DNA of 64,000 bases from an uncultured Verrucomicrobiota bacterium (GTDB lineage: Bacteria; Verrucomicrobiota; Kiritimatiellia; Kiritimatiellales; Tichowtungiaceae): positions 1-64,000 of the forward strand of contig CAIKGD010000048.1 of NCBI GenBank assembly GCA_903826865.1, given 5' to 3'. A program made the translations under genes and the position numbers. This document shows, piece by piece, positions 31,888 to 38,550 of this stretch. The notes beneath the pieces are model-generated. The model was given only the letters and a program-made list of their open reading frames with translations. It had not been told where the DNA came from and ran no database searches. Position 1 is the first letter of the stretch. Each line of letters starts with the position of its first letter.

Positions 31888-31910
31888 TGGCGGAGAGGGG
31901 GGGATTCGAA
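31888..31910 (-). repeat. Left attachment site (copy of the tRNA-Ser 3' end)
   Basis: The sequence TGGCGGAGAGGGGGGGATTC plus GAA is identical to 38458-38480. After it the match stops, so this is a partial tRNA copy and not a gene. Confidence 0.85.
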
Positions 31911-31970: not shown

Positions 31971-32078
31971 TTATACCCTGATTTGTCTCGGGTTGTCCAG
32001 TCGTGGGACACACTGCCCGAGGTGATTAAGAACGCAATCATCTCTTTGGTCGATTCGACCCAAGGAGGTGCAAAATGA
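31971..32078 (+). pseudogene. Gene tail fragment next to the left attachment site
   Basis: An open frame reads LYPDLSRVVQSWDTLPEVIK, then NAIISLVDS, to a stop overlapping the initiator start. The pattern resembles a short conserved tail (LARVVxxWxxLPxxIxxxIxxLV) that I recall near integrase genes, but there is no start or body, so it looks like a remnant left at the element's end. Confidence 0.35.
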
Positions 32079-33418
32079 TTTCAGGCGGCACACTTCCGAC
32101 AAACATTTCCGAAGGAGGATACGGCTCTGCTGGAGAGCAACCGGAGCGCCTTCGGAGCGGTGAAGAAGGCGGTGTGCCGCCTTCTCCTTTTTCCGCGCAC
32201 AACGTGCGCACGGCTTCCCCGTCGAATTCTTTGCCGCCCAAAGCGGGAAACTCCCGCCCGGAGGGCGGAACCGTCAGCGCGGGTGAAACGAGATTGCGGC
32301 GCTATCCTGACGGGATTTTCGACCTGCGAAGTCAAGCAAAGCCCCCTTCCCCCCCGTATCTAATAGGGGGGGATAATTGCCAAAAATATAACATTGCGGA
32401 CTTTGACGGGACTGTCGGCCTCGACTGGATTCAAGGAACTGTTCCGTTAGAGCATTCGGCGGAACTGTATGACTATTTTTCAAAAATGTGCGGCGGAAGT
32501 CCGGAAATAAAAAAATGGGGTCGGTTTCGATATAGCCGACATTGTGTCTGGCATCCATACGGGATTTCCATGTATTGGGATATTGATCCGGAAACGCGCA
32601 GCCTGCACCGGAACCGCTTTATGATTCAGCTGGGCGGCGAATCTTTGAAGGTATTTGACGCTGACTCGCTGTACCGGCTGGTTAAAGACCTGCACGATTT
32701 CTTTGAGTTCAGCGCAACACGAATAGACCTGTGCTTTGATGACTATGAAAAAATCATGCTCCCGCACCAAGTCGCCGGGGTTGCCGAACAGTCAAACTTC
32801 ACGGGATTCAAACGGTGGAAACCGGAACAGGAACGCCGGGTGTCCGGTGAATATCTTTCCGATCAAGTTCGCTTCGGCTCGCGCGGCAAGAACGGTTCCG
32901 GGCGCTTTCTGCGGTGCTATAATAAAAATCTGGAATCTGGCGGGGAAATTAATTCGGTTCGCTGGGAAGTCGAATTTTCCAAAGTACATGCAAAACTGGT
33001 TTTCGAAAAACTGTGTGAAGCACAGGACATTGAAACCTTCGCGGGACTGATCGGCGCGATAATCGGCGGCTCCATTGATTTTATAGACCGCAAAGGAACC
33101 CATCTCGACCGTATGCAGCGGCTCGAATGGTGGCAACGCATCCGCAATATTCTAGGCTGCGTTAAACTGAGGAACCCCCGGCGCATCAAATCGATTGATA
33201 ATACCGTTGGATGGATCGAAACATCAGTTGCCGGTTCATTTGAAAAAGTGCGTCGCGCCTATGGATCGCGGCGATTTGGTGAATGGCTCGACAATAAGGT
33301 ACTGGGACGAGCCTTAAACAAAGAGCAGCGGGCTCAAGTCCGGGACTATTGGGATAAAATTGGCCTCCCCGAATTGTCCACTCCGGAACTTCCATTTGAA
33401 ACGGGGTGTCGCCCATGA
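32075..33418 (+). CDS. Rep_trans-family replication initiator / MOBT-type relaxase
   Basis: The 447-residue protein has a catalytic region from about residue 105 (DFDGTVGLDWIQGTVPLEHS). Its features are those of Rep_trans proteins (pT181-type RepC, ICEBs1 NicK, Tn916 Orf20): SATRIDLCFDDYE, then GRFLRCYNKN with a Tyr-x-Lys (Tyr282) and SVRWEVEFSK. Such enzymes nick one strand at an origin to start rolling-circle replication or conjugal transfer. The first 100 residues are Pro/Gly/Ser-rich, without a recognisable domain, and the DNA there carries several hairpins including the C7/G7 origin-like one at 32349-32372. The ATG at 32075 has an excellent AAGGAGG site. It overlaps the next gene by ATGA. 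Whether it is a plasmid initiator or a relaxase is not decided by sequence alone. Confidence 0.78.
   Translation: MISGGTLPTNISEGGYGSAGEQPERLRSGEEGGVPPSPFSAHNVRTASPSNSLPPKAGNSRPEGGTVSAGETRLRRYPDGIFDLRSQAKPPSPPYLIGGDNCQKYNIADFDGTVGLDWIQGTVPLEHSAELYDYFSKMCGGSPEIKKWGRFRYSRHCVWHPYGISMYWDIDPETRSLHRNRFMIQLGGESLKVFDADSLYRLVKDLHDFFEFSATRIDLCFDDYEKIMLPHQVAGVAEQSNFTGFKRWKPEQERRVSGEYLSDQVRFGSRGKNGSGRFLRCYNKNLESGGEINSVRWEVEFSKVHAKLVFEKLCEAQDIETFAGLIGAIIGGSIDFIDRKGTHLDRMQRLEWWQRIRNILGCVKLRNPRRIKSIDNTVGWIETSVAGSFEKVRRAYGSRRFGEWLDNKVLGRALNKEQRAQVRDYWDKIGLPELSTPELPFETGCRP
32349..32372 (+). other. Candidate nick site: oriT or double-strand origin hairpin
   Basis: Seven C (32349-32355), loop GTATCTAATA (32356-32365) and seven G (32366-32372) form a perfect hairpin. 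From memory, MOBT elements such as ICEBs1 and Tn916 use a C-rich/G-rich hairpin with a 10-nt loop ending TAACA as oriT, and pT181 nicks within CTCTAATA in a hairpin loop. TCTAATA here fits both. The site lies within the initiator's own gene, as in pT181. Confidence 0.65.
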
Positions 33419-34311
33419 AGCGGCTCTGTGTACTGGGAAGCGGAAGTAAAGGAAACTGCACATTCATTGAATCGGGAACCACCCGGATTCTGATTGATGC
33501 GGGACTTAGTGCGACGCAAATCGAAAATCGGCTGGCATCCCTCGGGGTTGCAGCACAAACCATTCAGGCAATCTGCATCACGCATGACCATGTAGACCAT
33601 TACCAAGGGGCGCGGGTCTTTTGCAACCGCTGGGGAACGCATCTATATGCGAACCGGAAAACGATGCAGGGAATAATCCGGTCACATGCTTTATTCAGTG
33701 GCTTGCACTGGCATTTATTCCAAACGGGTGAATTATTCAGAATTGGAGAGATCGGAATTCAATCATTCCATATTTCCCATGATGCCAGCGACCCGGTCGG
33801 CTTCATTCTGACGCTTGGAAGCACCCGGATTGGATTTTGTACGGACTTGGGAACGGTCACGGAATCCGTTTATGAAGCACTGGAGCCCTGTGCGGTGATC
33901 GTGCTTGAATCAAACCATGATCCCCGGATGGTGGCAGCGTCTGACCGTCCGGAAGCAAACAAGATACGGATCGCCGGAAAGAAAGGACACCTTTCCAATC
34001 AGGAATCCGCCCGGTTTGCGGTACGCCTTGCCAAGGCCGGAAACCTGAAACGGGTGTACCTCGCGCATCTGAGCGAGGAATGCAGCCGGGAATCCATCGC
34101 CCGGCAGACTCTTTGCAGTGCATTCCATAAAAACGGAATTTCCGGTGTAGAAATTTGCATGACGCATCAGGGGAAAAAAGCAATGGTCTGGAATTTTGAA
34201 AAAACCGGCAGAAAAAAGGCGGCGGAAATTCTGCCGAAAAAACGGAAATTCCATAAAAAACAGAATTTCAGCCCCGTAAAATCCTTTTTTGACTGGTTTT
34301 TTGGTTCTTAA
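33415..34311 (+). CDS. Metallo-beta-lactamase-fold hydrolase, YycJ/WalJ-like, on the mobile element
   Basis: The 298-residue protein has an MBL fold: LGSGSKGNCTFIESGTTRIL, the metal motif THDHVDHYQGA, FHISHDASDPVGF, then GFCTDLGTV and ESNHDPRMV. This order is that of the YycJ/WalJ group, thought to be nucleases. The ATG at 33415 overlaps the initiator stop (ATGA), so it is translationally coupled to it and may act with it on DNA. A basic tail (KKAAEILPKKRKFHKKQNF) could bind nucleic acid. A strong terminator follows at 34585-34617. Confidence 0.85.
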   Translation: MKRLCVLGSGSKGNCTFIESGTTRILIDAGLSATQIENRLASLGVAAQTIQAICITHDHVDHYQGARVFCNRWGTHLYANRKTMQGIIRSHALFSGLHWHLFQTGELFRIGEIGIQSFHISHDASDPVGFILTLGSTRIGFCTDLGTVTESVYEALEPCAVIVLESNHDPRMVAASDRPEANKIRIAGKKGHLSNQESARFAVRLAKAGNLKRVYLAHLSEECSRESIARQTLCSAFHKNGISGVEICMTHQGKKAMVWNFEKTGRKKAAEILPKKRKFHKKQNFSPVKSFFDWFFGS

Positions 34312-34360
34312 CCCAGCGGAAAATTAATGAAATTCCTAAATTTAGAGGATAATTCTTGAA

Positions 34361-34467
34361 TATTCAGGATAATCGGGACATTCAGGGATATTCAGGATTA
34401 TCCTGAAAAAAGGGTGAGCAAAAACAGTCTGTTAATTTTCAGTATCCGGAATAATTCACAGTCTGTT
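34361..34467. repeat. Iteron-like direct repeats and a hairpin
   Basis: TATTCAGGATAA (34361-34372) and TATTCAGGATTA (34389-34400) are 28 bp apart, with a related ATTCAGGGATA between. TTCAGGATTATCCTGAA (34391-34407) is a hairpin. ACAGTCTGTT occurs twice (34424-34433 and 34458-34467). In the largest gap of the element (34312-34615) this could be a second origin, a single-strand origin or a partition site. Confidence 0.5.
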
Positions 34468-34617: not shown

Positions 34618-34876
34618 AGATAAACCGGTTCGGCTTGGCATTGGACAAGTCAAAGCCTTCCGCTTCAAATCCATCGGCGGAACAGGCGGGTAGATCGTTT
34701 TCATCAATCACCTGCTCGGGAACGGCATAGGGTGGGCCGTTTAGCCAGCTTGGGTCATCCTTCGGAATGTCAGCCAGACAAATTGCCGCGATGGTGCGGG
34801 TGCCGATGTCCGTGCAAAGCCAGCGCTGGCCGGACATCTCGAATTCCATACCGATTTTGAAGTCAGACGGTTTCAT
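34616..34876 (-). CDS. Small conserved protein of unknown function
   Basis: The 86-residue protein starts MKPSDFKIGMEFEMSGQRWL and contains CTDIGTRTIAAICL and DDPSWLNGPPYAV. I recall similar small proteins on plasmids and near restriction systems (pattern F.C.G..WRCTDIGTR), with no assigned role. It overlaps the restriction subunit gene by 4 bp, so it is probably co-translated with it. It ends at the terminator of the opposite operon. Confidence 0.7.
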   Translation of the reverse strand: MKPSDFKIGMEFEMSGQRWLCTDIGTRTIAAICLADIPKDDPSWLNGPPYAVPEQVIDENDLPACSADGFEAEGFDLSNAKPNRFI

Positions 34877-37485
34877 ATTTTCGTTTTAATCTGCTCGGCA
34901 ACGTCGCGCCCGGCTTCATCCTTTTTGACGGCGAACAGGAACAGGGCTTTGCCGTTGCTTTTCTGTTCCCACAGTCTGCCAATGTCCGCCTTTTCCACTT
35001 CGGATTTTTTATCAATCAATAGGTCGCCCTTGTATTCTATAATCAGAACCCGCCCGTCTTCAAGCTGCGCAATGAAGTCGGGATAAAAGCGCCCAGTGGA
35101 AACCGGCAAACTGAATGCGCAGGAATCGCGGCGCTCCAGATTGCGAACCCAGAATTTAACTTGGGGGTTCTGGTCAATTGCCTTGGCGCAGTCGAACTCT
35201 TCCCCTTGGCTTTTCAATTCGCCAACGGTCGGGAAATAATGTTTGTTGAACTGGTATGATCCGGAATAGTGCTCGCGCGCCGGATAACTTGACGGAGTGA
35301 ATTCATAGCGGAAATTCTCATCGGCACTCACCAACGCATCCGGAGCAAACAAAGCGGCCTGATAGCCTTTGCGCTGCGCGTCTTTACGGCACTCGGTGAT
35401 CCGGTCGGCAAACGCCTTTTGAAGTAGAAAGACAAAGCGTTGCTGAGTGGCATAGCCGACGCCCCGCTCATCCCGCAAATGCTGAACCATCTTCCGGATG
35501 AACTTGCACAAGTCGGCCTGCCGCAAACCGTGCTGGCGCAAATGACTGTCCAGCCAGCCAACCAGCCGGTCTTCCGTCCACGGGGTTTTCATTTCATCCA
35601 AATCCAGCTCTGCCTGCCCCTTGCCGATAAACTGCTCAATCACCCGTCCGCCCTGAATATCAATCAGGAATCGGTCGCTTTCCTCTTTGATCTGGAAACC
35701 GGGGAGTTCCGCCGGACAATCTGAAATCCGCCAGCTACTGTCCATAAAGGCGTCGTCGGTCACAACTTCTTTGAACCCGTCCAGCTCAAGGCAAAGCTGG
35801 GGAACAGCAAACGGAACGCCCTGAACTGCCGGACAGTCTTTTCGCGCTTCCTGATAGCGGCGCAGTTCCATCGTCTTCTTGAAAACCGTCTTCTCCTTGC
35901 CGTCGAGCGTTCCGGCAATCTGGTTTTCAGCTTCGGCGGAAAGAACCCCCTTGATCGTGTAATTCACCCGCCCGTCCGCCAGCGTCCGGACTTCAACCTT
36001 GCTTTGCTCTTCCGGCGGAAGCTCGCTGAGATCGGCTTTTTTGTCACCCGAAAAGCAGCACACTGGCAGCTCCAAAATTGAATCGTAACCGAACATCAGA
36101 TTGCCCTGCGCCGGGGCGCGCTGCATCCGGATTTCTTCCAGTGCTTCCTTTTCATCAAAGCCCATATCGACCAGACGGTCATGAATCTGACTGGCGGCAT
36201 GATTCCACGTCGGAGAGGAAACATGCGCATACGCCCGGTTCAGTTCGTTCTGAACCCGTTTCTTCGCGTAGGGCATCCGCAAAACACGCCCTAAAAGCTG
36301 TTCGACATTCTTCGGGGATTTGGTCGAAGCCACAGAACAGAGAATATAAGCAAACGAACAGTCCCAGCCTTCTTTCAGTGCTTCAATGGTAATTATGAAT
36401 TCAACCTTGGAGTTCCGGTCAAACAGATTAATCCCGTCCAGTTCCCGCTGGCTTCCTGTCACAATCGCAATGCGGCCCCGGTCAATTCCTTCCTCTTCGG
36501 TCAGATACTTTTCGACCACTTCCACCGTCACGTCCTGATTTTTCTTCTCGGCCTGAATCAAAACAATCGGGCGGATGTAGTCTTTATCCTGCTCCGCCAG
36601 TTCGTGGAGTTTTTGCCGGGTCTGAACGGCGGAATGAATGGCTTCCTGCCATGTTTCATGTTCCGTCAGCTCAATCGGCAGCTTAATCATTTCTTCCGCT
36701 TTCAGCTCCGATGCGGAAACATTGTGCAGAATGTTACTGTCCGCCGCCGGGGTCGCGGTGAATTCAATAATGCAGGAAGGATTGATTTTCTCCACACGCT
36801 CAACGCTCAGCTCTGAATCATGGTTGTGCGCTTCGTCCACAATCATCAACGGGCGGTGCAGGTGAAGCAGGTTAATGAATGACGCTTTTACCTTTCCGGT
36901 TTCATCCCGGTCTAAACCGTTTTCGCCGGTCGGAAGATTCTGGAAATGATTTTCTAAATCCTCGTGGTGCGCGTAAACCTTCCGCATTTCCTCGTTGTCG
37001 TTCCCGACGCGATAGGAGGCAAACGTCGCTAAAATGATATTGGTCTTGCTCTTTAAATCCTGCGGGCGGATTTGTGTAAACTCGGAAATATCCAGCACCC
37101 GGAAGCGATTTTCAAAAAGCTCTTCCAGCGCCTCGCGGTACGGATGCCCCGGCGTGCGCAAAGCGTCGCGGGTCTGTTCTTTGATGGTCGAAGTCGGGAC
37201 AACCCACAGAACCAGCGGGCAGTCGGTATCCATGAAGTTTTGCGCCGCCTTCTTAATCGCATAGGTCGCCAGCAAGGTTTTGCCGCCGCCGGTGGGGAGC
37301 CGCAGACAGACATACGGCGCATCCAGCACTTTGTCGCTCAACGCCTGATAAGGGCGGAAGATCACGCCCGGATTTTCCGCAGCGACTTTTTCAAAGGCGG
37401 CTTTTGCGCCGATAATCCGCGCCGCGCTCAAATAGGCTTCCAGCACCCGCAGAGTTTCTTCCTGATAGTTTTTCAGCCTGAACAT
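34873..37485 (-). CDS. Type III restriction enzyme Res-like subunit (DEAD/DEAH helicase-nuclease)
   Basis: The 870-residue protein has an SF2 helicase core: Walker A LRLPTGGGKTLLATYA, motif II MIVDEAHNHDSE, motif III EFTATPA, and a motif VI-like VEQLLGRVLRMPYAKK. A PD-(D/E)xK-type site sits near the C-terminus (FYPDFIAQLEDGRVLIIEYK). This matches Res subunits, which translocate on and cut unmethylated DNA together with a Mod subunit. The adjacent mod gene is truncated, so a functional type III system is unlikely unless Mod is supplied elsewhere. A related reading is a stand-alone helicase-nuclease of a defence system. Confidence 0.85.
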   Translation of the reverse strand: MFRLKNYQEETLRVLEAYLSAARIIGAKAAFEKVAAENPGVIFRPYQALSDKVLDAPYVCLRLPTGGGKTLLATYAIKKAAQNFMDTDCPLVLWVVPTSTIKEQTRDALRTPGHPYREALEELFENRFRVLDISEFTQIRPQDLKSKTNIILATFASYRVGNDNEEMRKVYAHHEDLENHFQNLPTGENGLDRDETGKVKASFINLLHLHRPLMIVDEAHNHDSELSVERVEKINPSCIIEFTATPAADSNILHNVSASELKAEEMIKLPIELTEHETWQEAIHSAVQTRQKLHELAEQDKDYIRPIVLIQAEKKNQDVTVEVVEKYLTEEEGIDRGRIAIVTGSQRELDGINLFDRNSKVEFIITIEALKEGWDCSFAYILCSVASTKSPKNVEQLLGRVLRMPYAKKRVQNELNRAYAHVSSPTWNHAASQIHDRLVDMGFDEKEALEEIRMQRAPAQGNLMFGYDSILELPVCCFSGDKKADLSELPPEEQSKVEVRTLADGRVNYTIKGVLSAEAENQIAGTLDGKEKTVFKKTMELRRYQEARKDCPAVQGVPFAVPQLCLELDGFKEVVTDDAFMDSSWRISDCPAELPGFQIKEESDRFLIDIQGGRVIEQFIGKGQAELDLDEMKTPWTEDRLVGWLDSHLRQHGLRQADLCKFIRKMVQHLRDERGVGYATQQRFVFLLQKAFADRITECRKDAQRKGYQAALFAPDALVSADENFRYEFTPSSYPAREHYSGSYQFNKHYFPTVGELKSQGEEFDCAKAIDQNPQVKFWVRNLERRDSCAFSLPVSTGRFYPDFIAQLEDGRVLIIEYKGDLLIDKKSEVEKADIGRLWEQKSNGKALFLFAVKKDEAGRDVAEQIKTKI

Positions 37486-37488
37486 GAT

Positions 37489-38253
37489 TTACCGCGCCTT
37501 TACGTCATACGGGGTTTGCTTGAACACAATATTTTCTTTGCGGAGCCGGTCTTCTTTGAATGGCGTCCATTCGCCGTAAATCACCTTCGCGCCGTCATAC
37601 GGCGGAAGTTCCGCCAGCACACGGGAAGTCAGCACATTGCCGCCCGACTGACTCCGTTCGCCCAGAATCCCATTGTAGAGCAGGTAATAGGCAACGCCGT
37701 TATGCATACCCAGCAGCGGCGATTTTTTACGCCCTGCCCACGGTGCATGTGTTTCCGAAAACCAGACGTGCGCCGCCAGCACCGGAAACTTTAGCTCATG
37801 AAATTTGGCTTCATTTGAAACCCAACAACGGCTCTCAGGCGGATTAACAATGCGTCCAGAAGGTAAAGTAATCGGATAATCACAAGTAGCGTTGTAGGTC
37901 TTAACAGAAAAGTCTGCTGGTTTCCATTGACCACGGGAGTCGTCGTCTGGATTCTTGTAGCGCTTATCCATTTCGGCTGAACGTGGCAGAAGATTTGGCC
38001 GCCAAACCTCTTTATTCTTGGCATAGGCTAAAATATGATCGTGGCTATCAGAAAGCCATTTTGCATCGTTTTGCGGCGAATATTTTTTTTCCCAAATCAC
38101 ATTGCTGATAAAATTCTTTCGTCCAAAAATTTCGTCCGTCATTACTTTTAGGTAATGGGCCTCATCATCGTCTAGGTGTATCACCTCGTATTGTTCAAGC
38201 TCTGATGCGGCATAGCGAGATTCGGTTGACAACGGAAATATATACCGACCCAA
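37489..38253 (-). pseudogene. Truncated type III modification methyltransferase (Mod)
   Basis: The frame encodes a C-terminal part of a Mod protein. It resembles such enzymes from HLDDDEAHYLKVMTDEIFGR and NFISNVIWEKKYSPQNDAKW onward (SDSHDHILAYAKNKEVWRPN, DYPITLPSGRIVNPPESRCW). The catalytic DPPY motif and the AdoMet-binding N-terminus that should precede it are missing. Its first 20-odd codons (38183-38253) are unrelated: they are the antisense of an integrase remnant, so the deletion junction lies near 38175-38185. Without the catalytic half it cannot methylate DNA. It lies 3 bp upstream of the Res gene in the usual mod-res order. Confidence 0.8.
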
Positions 38254-38457
38254 CCCAGCTACCGACTCGTGATGCGATTGAAAGTTTATCCGCTCGCTTG
38301 GGTGAAAGTGTCACTCATTTCTCCACTTCAAAATCGACTTTAGGAGGGTTTGAGGGGGATAGAGAGTCCCGGACAGTCGCGGGGCTGGACACAACGAAAG
38401 CCCCTGTTAATGGGGCTTATAGTCGTTGTCTGACCCGGTGTGTCCCGGATAAAAAGG
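38175..38457 (+). pseudogene. C-terminal remnant of a tyrosine recombinase (integrase)
   Basis: The plus-strand frame reads GVSPRIVQALMRHSEIRLTT, then EIYTDPTQLPTRDAIESL. This is the end of a phage-type integrase: the HxxR-like box lies upstream, and RHSxxRLTxxxYTD is the part around the nucleophilic Tyr. It stays open into the tRNA, as such genes often do. All earlier domains are absent; the break coincides with the truncation of the opposite-strand Mod gene, so one deletion removed both 5' parts. Its end at the tRNA attachment site supports it as the element's own integrase. Confidence 0.75.
38391..38429. terminator. Nested hairpin between the integrase remnant and tRNA-Ser
   Basis: AGCCCC (38399-38404) pairs with GGGGCT (38412-38417), inside ACAACG (38391-38396)/CGTTGT (38424-38429). 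There is no T-run; it may terminate or be part of the attachment region. Confidence 0.4.

Positions 38458-38550
<93 letters not shown>

Follow-up and report, generated by a model that had tools for sequence, protein, structure and literature searches.

The window analysed here, a stretch of 64,000 nt of genomic DNA from an uncultured bacterium of the order Kiritimatiellales, holds an element of 6.57 kb next to a tRNA-Ser gene, the features of which are listed below.

31888..31910, no strand assigned: attL-like copy of the 23-bp 3' end of tRNA-Ser, a perfect repeat of 38458-38480
32062..32078, + strand: Shine-Dalgarno sequence AAGGAGGT and the overlap (ATG/TGA) between rep and the reading frame before it
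32075..33418, + strand: rep, Rep_trans initiator of 447 aa (PF02486, 1.4e-19)
32349..32372, + strand: predicted nick-site hairpin (C7 at 32349-32355, loop GTATCTAATA at 32356-32365, G7 at 32366-32372)
32361..32362, + strand: predicted nick CT'AA, between T32361 and A32362, by homology
33406..34311, + strand: metallo-beta-lactamase-fold (MBL) hydrolase, overlapping the end of rep (PF12706, 1.7e-22; phrog_392, 5.1e-42)
34873..37485, - strand: type III restriction enzyme Res, nearly full length and carried as cargo (PADLOC REase_III, E 1e-189, residues 1-868)
37489..38253, - strand: type III methyltransferase fragment, the 5' end of which overlaps the integrase remnant (PADLOC MTase_III, 9.5e-66)
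38175..38303, + strand: C-terminal remnant of a tyrosine integrase, adjoining the tRNA (hit in tblastn by the integrases of G020 and G019, at E 5.5e-10 and 1.3e-7 respectively, 35-49% identity)
38458..38550, - strand: tRNA-Ser(GCT), the integration site, the 3' 23 bp of which (38458-38480) form the other direct repeat

The element is site-specifically integrated in tRNA-Ser, with the two 23-bp repeats bounding rep, the MBL hydrolase, Res, the methyltransferase fragment and the integrase remnant. As only the C-terminal part of the integrase is left the element looks decayed and may be dead, and because the integrase is broken this copy has probably been stranded in the chromosome with rep and its origin intact. 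Genomes of the same genus keep tRNA-Ser beside the CCA enzyme and the left neighbour gene of the window is absent from the 1.5-kb flanks examined, therefore no clean empty site could be shown. The two restriction genes (34873-38253) form an odd pair, with Res near full length and Mod fragmentary (its best stretch covers profile positions 132-266 of 542), which leaves a restriction enzyme without a full methylase. The MBL hydrolase (33406-34311) has a weak, sub-cut-off match to the anti-Pycsar protein Apyc1 and a stronger one to phage metal-dependent hydrolases (phrog_392), and between it and the restriction genes, at 34332-34402, lie three direct repeats of 23 nt (ATTC...GGATAATC).

The product of rep is assigned to Rep_trans with 71 bits against a curated cut-off of 29.6 in a profile search for PF02486. 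Residues 1-110 are predicted to be disordered and are followed by a core of about residues 110-340 with the catalytic Tyr282; residues 1-91 show no clear likeness to the N-termini of relatives. The Rep_trans motif set consists of RxD, YxKxxE with the nucleophilic Tyr, and RxE (PMC5714925), and all of these are intact in the window protein as R216/D218, Y282 within YNKNLE and R296xE298, with an S in place of W/L in motif IV. Residues R216, D218, G268, Y282 and E298 are invariant in an alignment of 12 diverse members, where Y282 is aligned with Y188 of RepD. A search of solved structures by sequence gave no match for Rep, whereas comparison of the predicted fold with Foldseek matched 4cij (E 2.5e-11) and 4cwe (9.8e-7), using a model of modest confidence (pLDDT 55.9 overall and about 60-93 for residues 111-240).

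The frame opened at 32075 reads CCC CCG TAT CTA ATA GGG GGG across the hairpin, and since the Shine-Dalgarno sequence directly precedes the ATG the hairpin most likely lies inside the translated part of rep. The end of the upstream frame (SWDTLPEVIKNAIISLVDSTQGGAK and then the stop) resembles that of the frame preceding rep in a related element of genome G019. The initial annotation had described a hairpin with seven C:G pairs and a 10-nt loop at codon 92 of a Rep_trans-type initiator gene in a PVC-type bacterium, and gene, geometry, position and host all read the same here. Within the 64-kb window 0.02 occurrences of C6-N(3-15)-G6 are expected from dinucleotide shuffles and one is observed, the hairpin itself, which is also the single copy of this pattern across the 2.64-Mb genome. 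Folded as single-stranded DNA in a 60-nt context it has a free energy of -9.6 kcal/mol (z -2.0), and synonymous-codon resampling of rep gave a comparable hairpin in 29 of 20,000 trials. In the loop and the right arm the codons are rare, with CTA, ATA and GGG making up 2.5%, 7.4% and 11% of the codons for their amino acids. Elsewhere in the 5' part of rep there is a terminator-like hairpin with a T-rich tail (AGAAGGCGGTGTGCCGCCTTCT CCTTTTT) at 32164-32185, possibly an attenuator, which is not above shuffle expectation.

Four further Rep_trans genes were found in 58 related genomes, three of them with an intact 5' part, and in all three, which belong to Kiritimatiellales (two of them to Pontiellaceae), the hairpin is found at the same place: CCCCCCTACTCTATTAGGGGGGG in G023, CCCCCCCTTCTCTAATAGGGGGG in G020 and CCCCCCCTACTCTATTAGGGGGGG in G019. 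In G019 and G020 hairpin, place and frame are as in the window, and G023 differs by one C fewer. The fourth homologue, in G031, is 5'-truncated and lacks the hairpin; it is the nearest homologue of the window Rep (44%), adjoins an AraC-type gene and looks like a relic (L007/L014). At the G023 locus (L086:8600-8950) a C tract of 6 rather than 7 C brings a TAG into frame from the upstream ATG, which is either a real frame break in the homopolymer of the origin or a sequencing error.

Across the phylum the pattern CCCCN{1,5}TCTAWTAGGGG occurs in 6 of 388 genomes, among which are the four that have a full-length homologue of Rep (P 1.6e-8). Taken by itself the pattern shows no enrichment, as a reversed control occurs in more of the 388 genomes than the real one, and therefore it is the association of the pattern with rep that constitutes the evidence. 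The other two genomes are G254, with a shorter match, and G016, in which the hairpin lies in a repeat and no Rep gene was found. At least three copies of this repeat of ~200 bp, diverged from one another, lie close to the ends of contigs (C10:461-677, C31:35454-35689 and C35:201-387; L022, L030, L084 and L085), and two of the copies bear the hairpin CCCCCC(C)TGCTCTAATAGGGGGG; they could be origin-only, non-autonomous copies or elements broken by the assembly.

The G019 element follows the plan of the window element, with 23-bp repeats of tRNA-Leu, a full-length integrase at the tRNA and rep at the far end, and the G020 contig (3.8 kb) has no exact end overlap and so is not a closed circle. In G023 rep sits with genes for Zot, a coat-like protein, a large adsorption-like protein and an integrase, and because of this company the locus is, judged by its sequence, apparently an inovirus-like prophage. 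Neither Zot nor coat genes are among the main ORFs of the window element, which on that count does not itself class as an inovirus. A Zot gene is present on another contig of the window genome, where the region C65:12393-12914 of G000 (L214:7632-10351) encodes a Zot-like ATPase, a small membrane protein and a 357-aa protein at the contig end. What lies there is a portion of an inovirus-like prophage, and no Rep_trans gene was found on it. The open-access literature yielded no description of inoviruses in Kiritimatiellota or of a rule placing such a hairpin in the rep of inoviruses, which is not proof of absence.

A scan of a viral collection with the protein alignment gave no match, unlike a search of the IMG/VR collection by the hairpin alone (CCCCCN{1,4}TCTAAYAGGGGG, with L076 added from a search with a looser pattern). 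A Rep_trans ORF is present in 59 of about 80 loci found in this way, a raw count taken without a random-contig baseline, and all 61 Rep_trans ORFs, which form 23 clusters at 50% identity, are on the strand of the hairpin. Together with the three intact Kiritimatiellales homologues these loci bear out, at the DNA level, the conservation near homologous genes by which the initial annotation had proposed that its reading be judged. The hairpin lies inside the stop-to-stop rep ORF in 42 of the 59 loci (34 with an upstream in-frame ATG or GTG) and before the ORF in the other 17. Where it is inside, it is read in frame 0 (PPxL[IT]GG) in 20 cases, in frame 1 (PPLSNRGG) in 22 and never in the third frame, which reads TAA. 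Because the frame is free and 17 loci have the hairpin outside the ORF, the constraint acts on the DNA and not on the peptide. Most of the 42 records are filamentous phages, as 31 of them bear Zot; four are circles, 5.6-6.1 kb long, whose ends overlap by 127-141 bp.

MOBT relaxases, that of ICEBs1 among them, have as nic site CT'AA, lying within the loop of a hairpin rich in G/C; it is identical to that of Rep_trans origins (PMC9371924), and by sequence comparison the window has the same arrangement, CT'AA in the loop of a GC-rich hairpin, within a gene. Similar loops occur at L090 and L093. As the loop resembles known nick loops and contains the published nic site, the nick is predicted between 32361 and 32362. 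A text search of the literature for the nick sequence returned unrelated matches only.

Among the closest known counterparts is the double-strand origin (ICRII) of the pT181/pC221 plasmids with their initiators RepC and RepD, which shares with the window a Rep_trans domain, the aligned Tyr, a CTCTAATA hairpin inside rep and a nick in the loop, predicted in the case of the window. In pC221 the site reads AACCGGCTA CTCTAA TAGCCGGTT and lies 59 bp past the annotated start of repD, and hairpin extrusion is known to control nicking by RepD (PMC5775427). The differences are the stem, AACCGGCTA/TAGCCGGTT in pC221 against C7/G7 here, the low identity of the proteins (~18% in the alignment) and the chromosomal location of the window element; furthermore no shared inverted repeat resembling the ICRIII binding repeat of Rep was found in the 150 bp downstream of the hairpin. 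Rep_trans inoviruses (D_HF33_10, Dulem virus 54 and the circles L044, L051, L059 and L076) carry, on the strand of rep and within its 5' part, a hairpin formed like that of the window. In the two named viruses it is CCCCCCT TATCTAAC AGGGGGG, 96 and 21 bp inside rep respectively; unlike these phages the window element lacks Zot, coat and adsorption genes. CTXphi, compared by its published description, is likewise a filamentous phage with a Rep_trans initiator, RstA (PMC5714925), that is nicked in a hairpin loop, whereas its nick is reported to fall at a G/T step, in loop 2 of an ori(+) of 167 bp, and to require HU (PMC4439123). The small cyanobacterial plasmids pCB of Synechocystis and pCYLM01 are among the best plasmid protein matches of Rep (25-26% identity), and the search used found no hairpin combining a CTAA loop with a stem of C and G tracts, either within their rep genes or immediately ahead of them.

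A further likeness is to the oriT of Tn916-type elements, where the region of MobT has ACCCCCC GTATCTAACA GGGGGGT 138 bp upstream of mobT. Both have a stem of C and G tracts and a CT'AA loop, and the comparison with Tn916 that had been called for shows GTATCTAATA of the window and GTATCTAACA to be one base apart, with the pC221 nick loop also similar; known sites of this form do lie 5' of their initiator genes or inside them, as had been stated, mobT and repD being the respective examples. It could thus be argued that the hairpin is a conjugative oriT, which a MOBT relaxase nicks so as to pass a strand on to a type IV secretion system, either the cell's own or that of a helper, the element being an IME. 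The near identity to the hairpin before mobT in plasmid copies of Tn916 type speaks for this, as do the kinship and common nic sequence of Rep_trans and MOBT, the latter also driving rolling-circle replication (PMC9371924), and the integration in a tRNA gene, as in many mobilizable elements. It would nevertheless seem unlikely. The oriT of the ICESt3/Tn916/ICEBs1 superfamily lies about 60-140 bp upstream of the gene in the cases compared, whereas the window hairpin is within rep as in pC221 and the inoviruses, and these elements mostly carry FtsK-like and other transfer genes, whereas the 6.6-kb element has no transfer or coupling gene. No VirB4 (TIGR00929) exceeded the cut-off in a search of the whole genome, which is 98% complete (a coupling protein was sought in the element only), no N-terminal HTH domain was found in the window Rep, and the neighbourhood of the G023 homologue is that of an inovirus. 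Because the element has no transfer gene, the genome no VirB4 over the cut-off and the homologue an inovirus-like setting, rolling-circle replication is likelier than conjugation; of the "MOBT-type transfer or rolling-circle system" put forward in the initial annotation the second half thus fits better.

GC-rich inverted repeats are common as terminators, and a looser pattern gave 51 viral hits that are mostly background and for the most part not near a Rep_trans gene (present in 5 of 49 records), so that a transcription terminator, an attenuator or a dispersed palindromic repeat lying in the gene by chance has to be considered; this is very improbable, as there is no T tract after the hairpin, a terminator scan made no call there, and the letters of the loop as well as the stem are conserved across very distant replicons, tied to rep and on one strand. 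A dispersed repeat was dropped as the identity of CCCCCC...GGGGGG because the site is single-copy in the genome. That the peptide PPxLIGG is what is conserved, for example as a protein-binding motif in the N-terminal tail, with the hairpin as a by-product, is scarcely credible, for whilst PPxL(I/L)GG is common to the Kiritimatiellales copies in one frame, other inovirus groups read the same DNA in another frame as PPLSNRGG, 17 of 59 loci have it outside the ORF, its codons are among the rarest for their amino acids, and G023 keeps the hairpin despite the frame break in the C tract.

The hairpin is therefore very probably the nick site of a rolling-circle origin, belonging to a decayed element related to inoviruses and cut by the Rep_trans protein of that element. 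The sequences show the hairpin and its conservation, the intact catalytic residues, the borders of the element and its relatives; nicking, replication and any present activity are what we infer from these comparisons. The hairpin would act as the leading-strand (double-strand) origin in a small replicon of the rolling-circle type and be cut by the product of the gene in which it lies. Tyr282 would attack the CT'AA bond at 32361/32362 on the + strand and stay attached to the 5' end; rolling-circle copying would be primed by the 3' end, as in the pT181 family. Lying in the stretch that codes for the disordered tail, the origin would have its sequence fixed by its function as DNA and need only stay free of stops. 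The replicon would come from the branch of Rep_trans used by filamentous phages; here it is the tRNA-Ser-integrated element, with most of its integrase lost and type III restriction genes aboard.

It is conceivable, if on balance doubtful, that filamentous phages have satellites in Kiritimatiellales, namely the window element and the elements with Rep and integrase in G019 and G020. These would replicate with their own Rep_trans protein from the hairpin within rep, while a helper inovirus bearing Zot would package and spread them. This suggestion is drawn from gene content, and part of such a helper is present on C65 of the window genome. Were it true, filamentous phages with Rep_trans initiators would have as their common origin design a nick hairpin of pT181/MOBT type, set in the 5' part of the gene in one or the other of the two stop-free frames.

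Hairpins of this type are already known, and small virus-like rolling-circle elements have hardly been described in the bacterial group of the host. For a group of mobile elements in PVC bacteria the locus provides an origin that is concrete and testable. The hairpin alone is a good probe: searched for as a DNA pattern, it finds Rep_trans replicons across a broad spectrum of phages. One nick site ties together the origins of plasmids (pT181), the origins of conjugation (Tn916, ICEBs1) and filamentous phages, and here the origin sets the coding sequence of the very gene for its initiator, and does so in two different frames.
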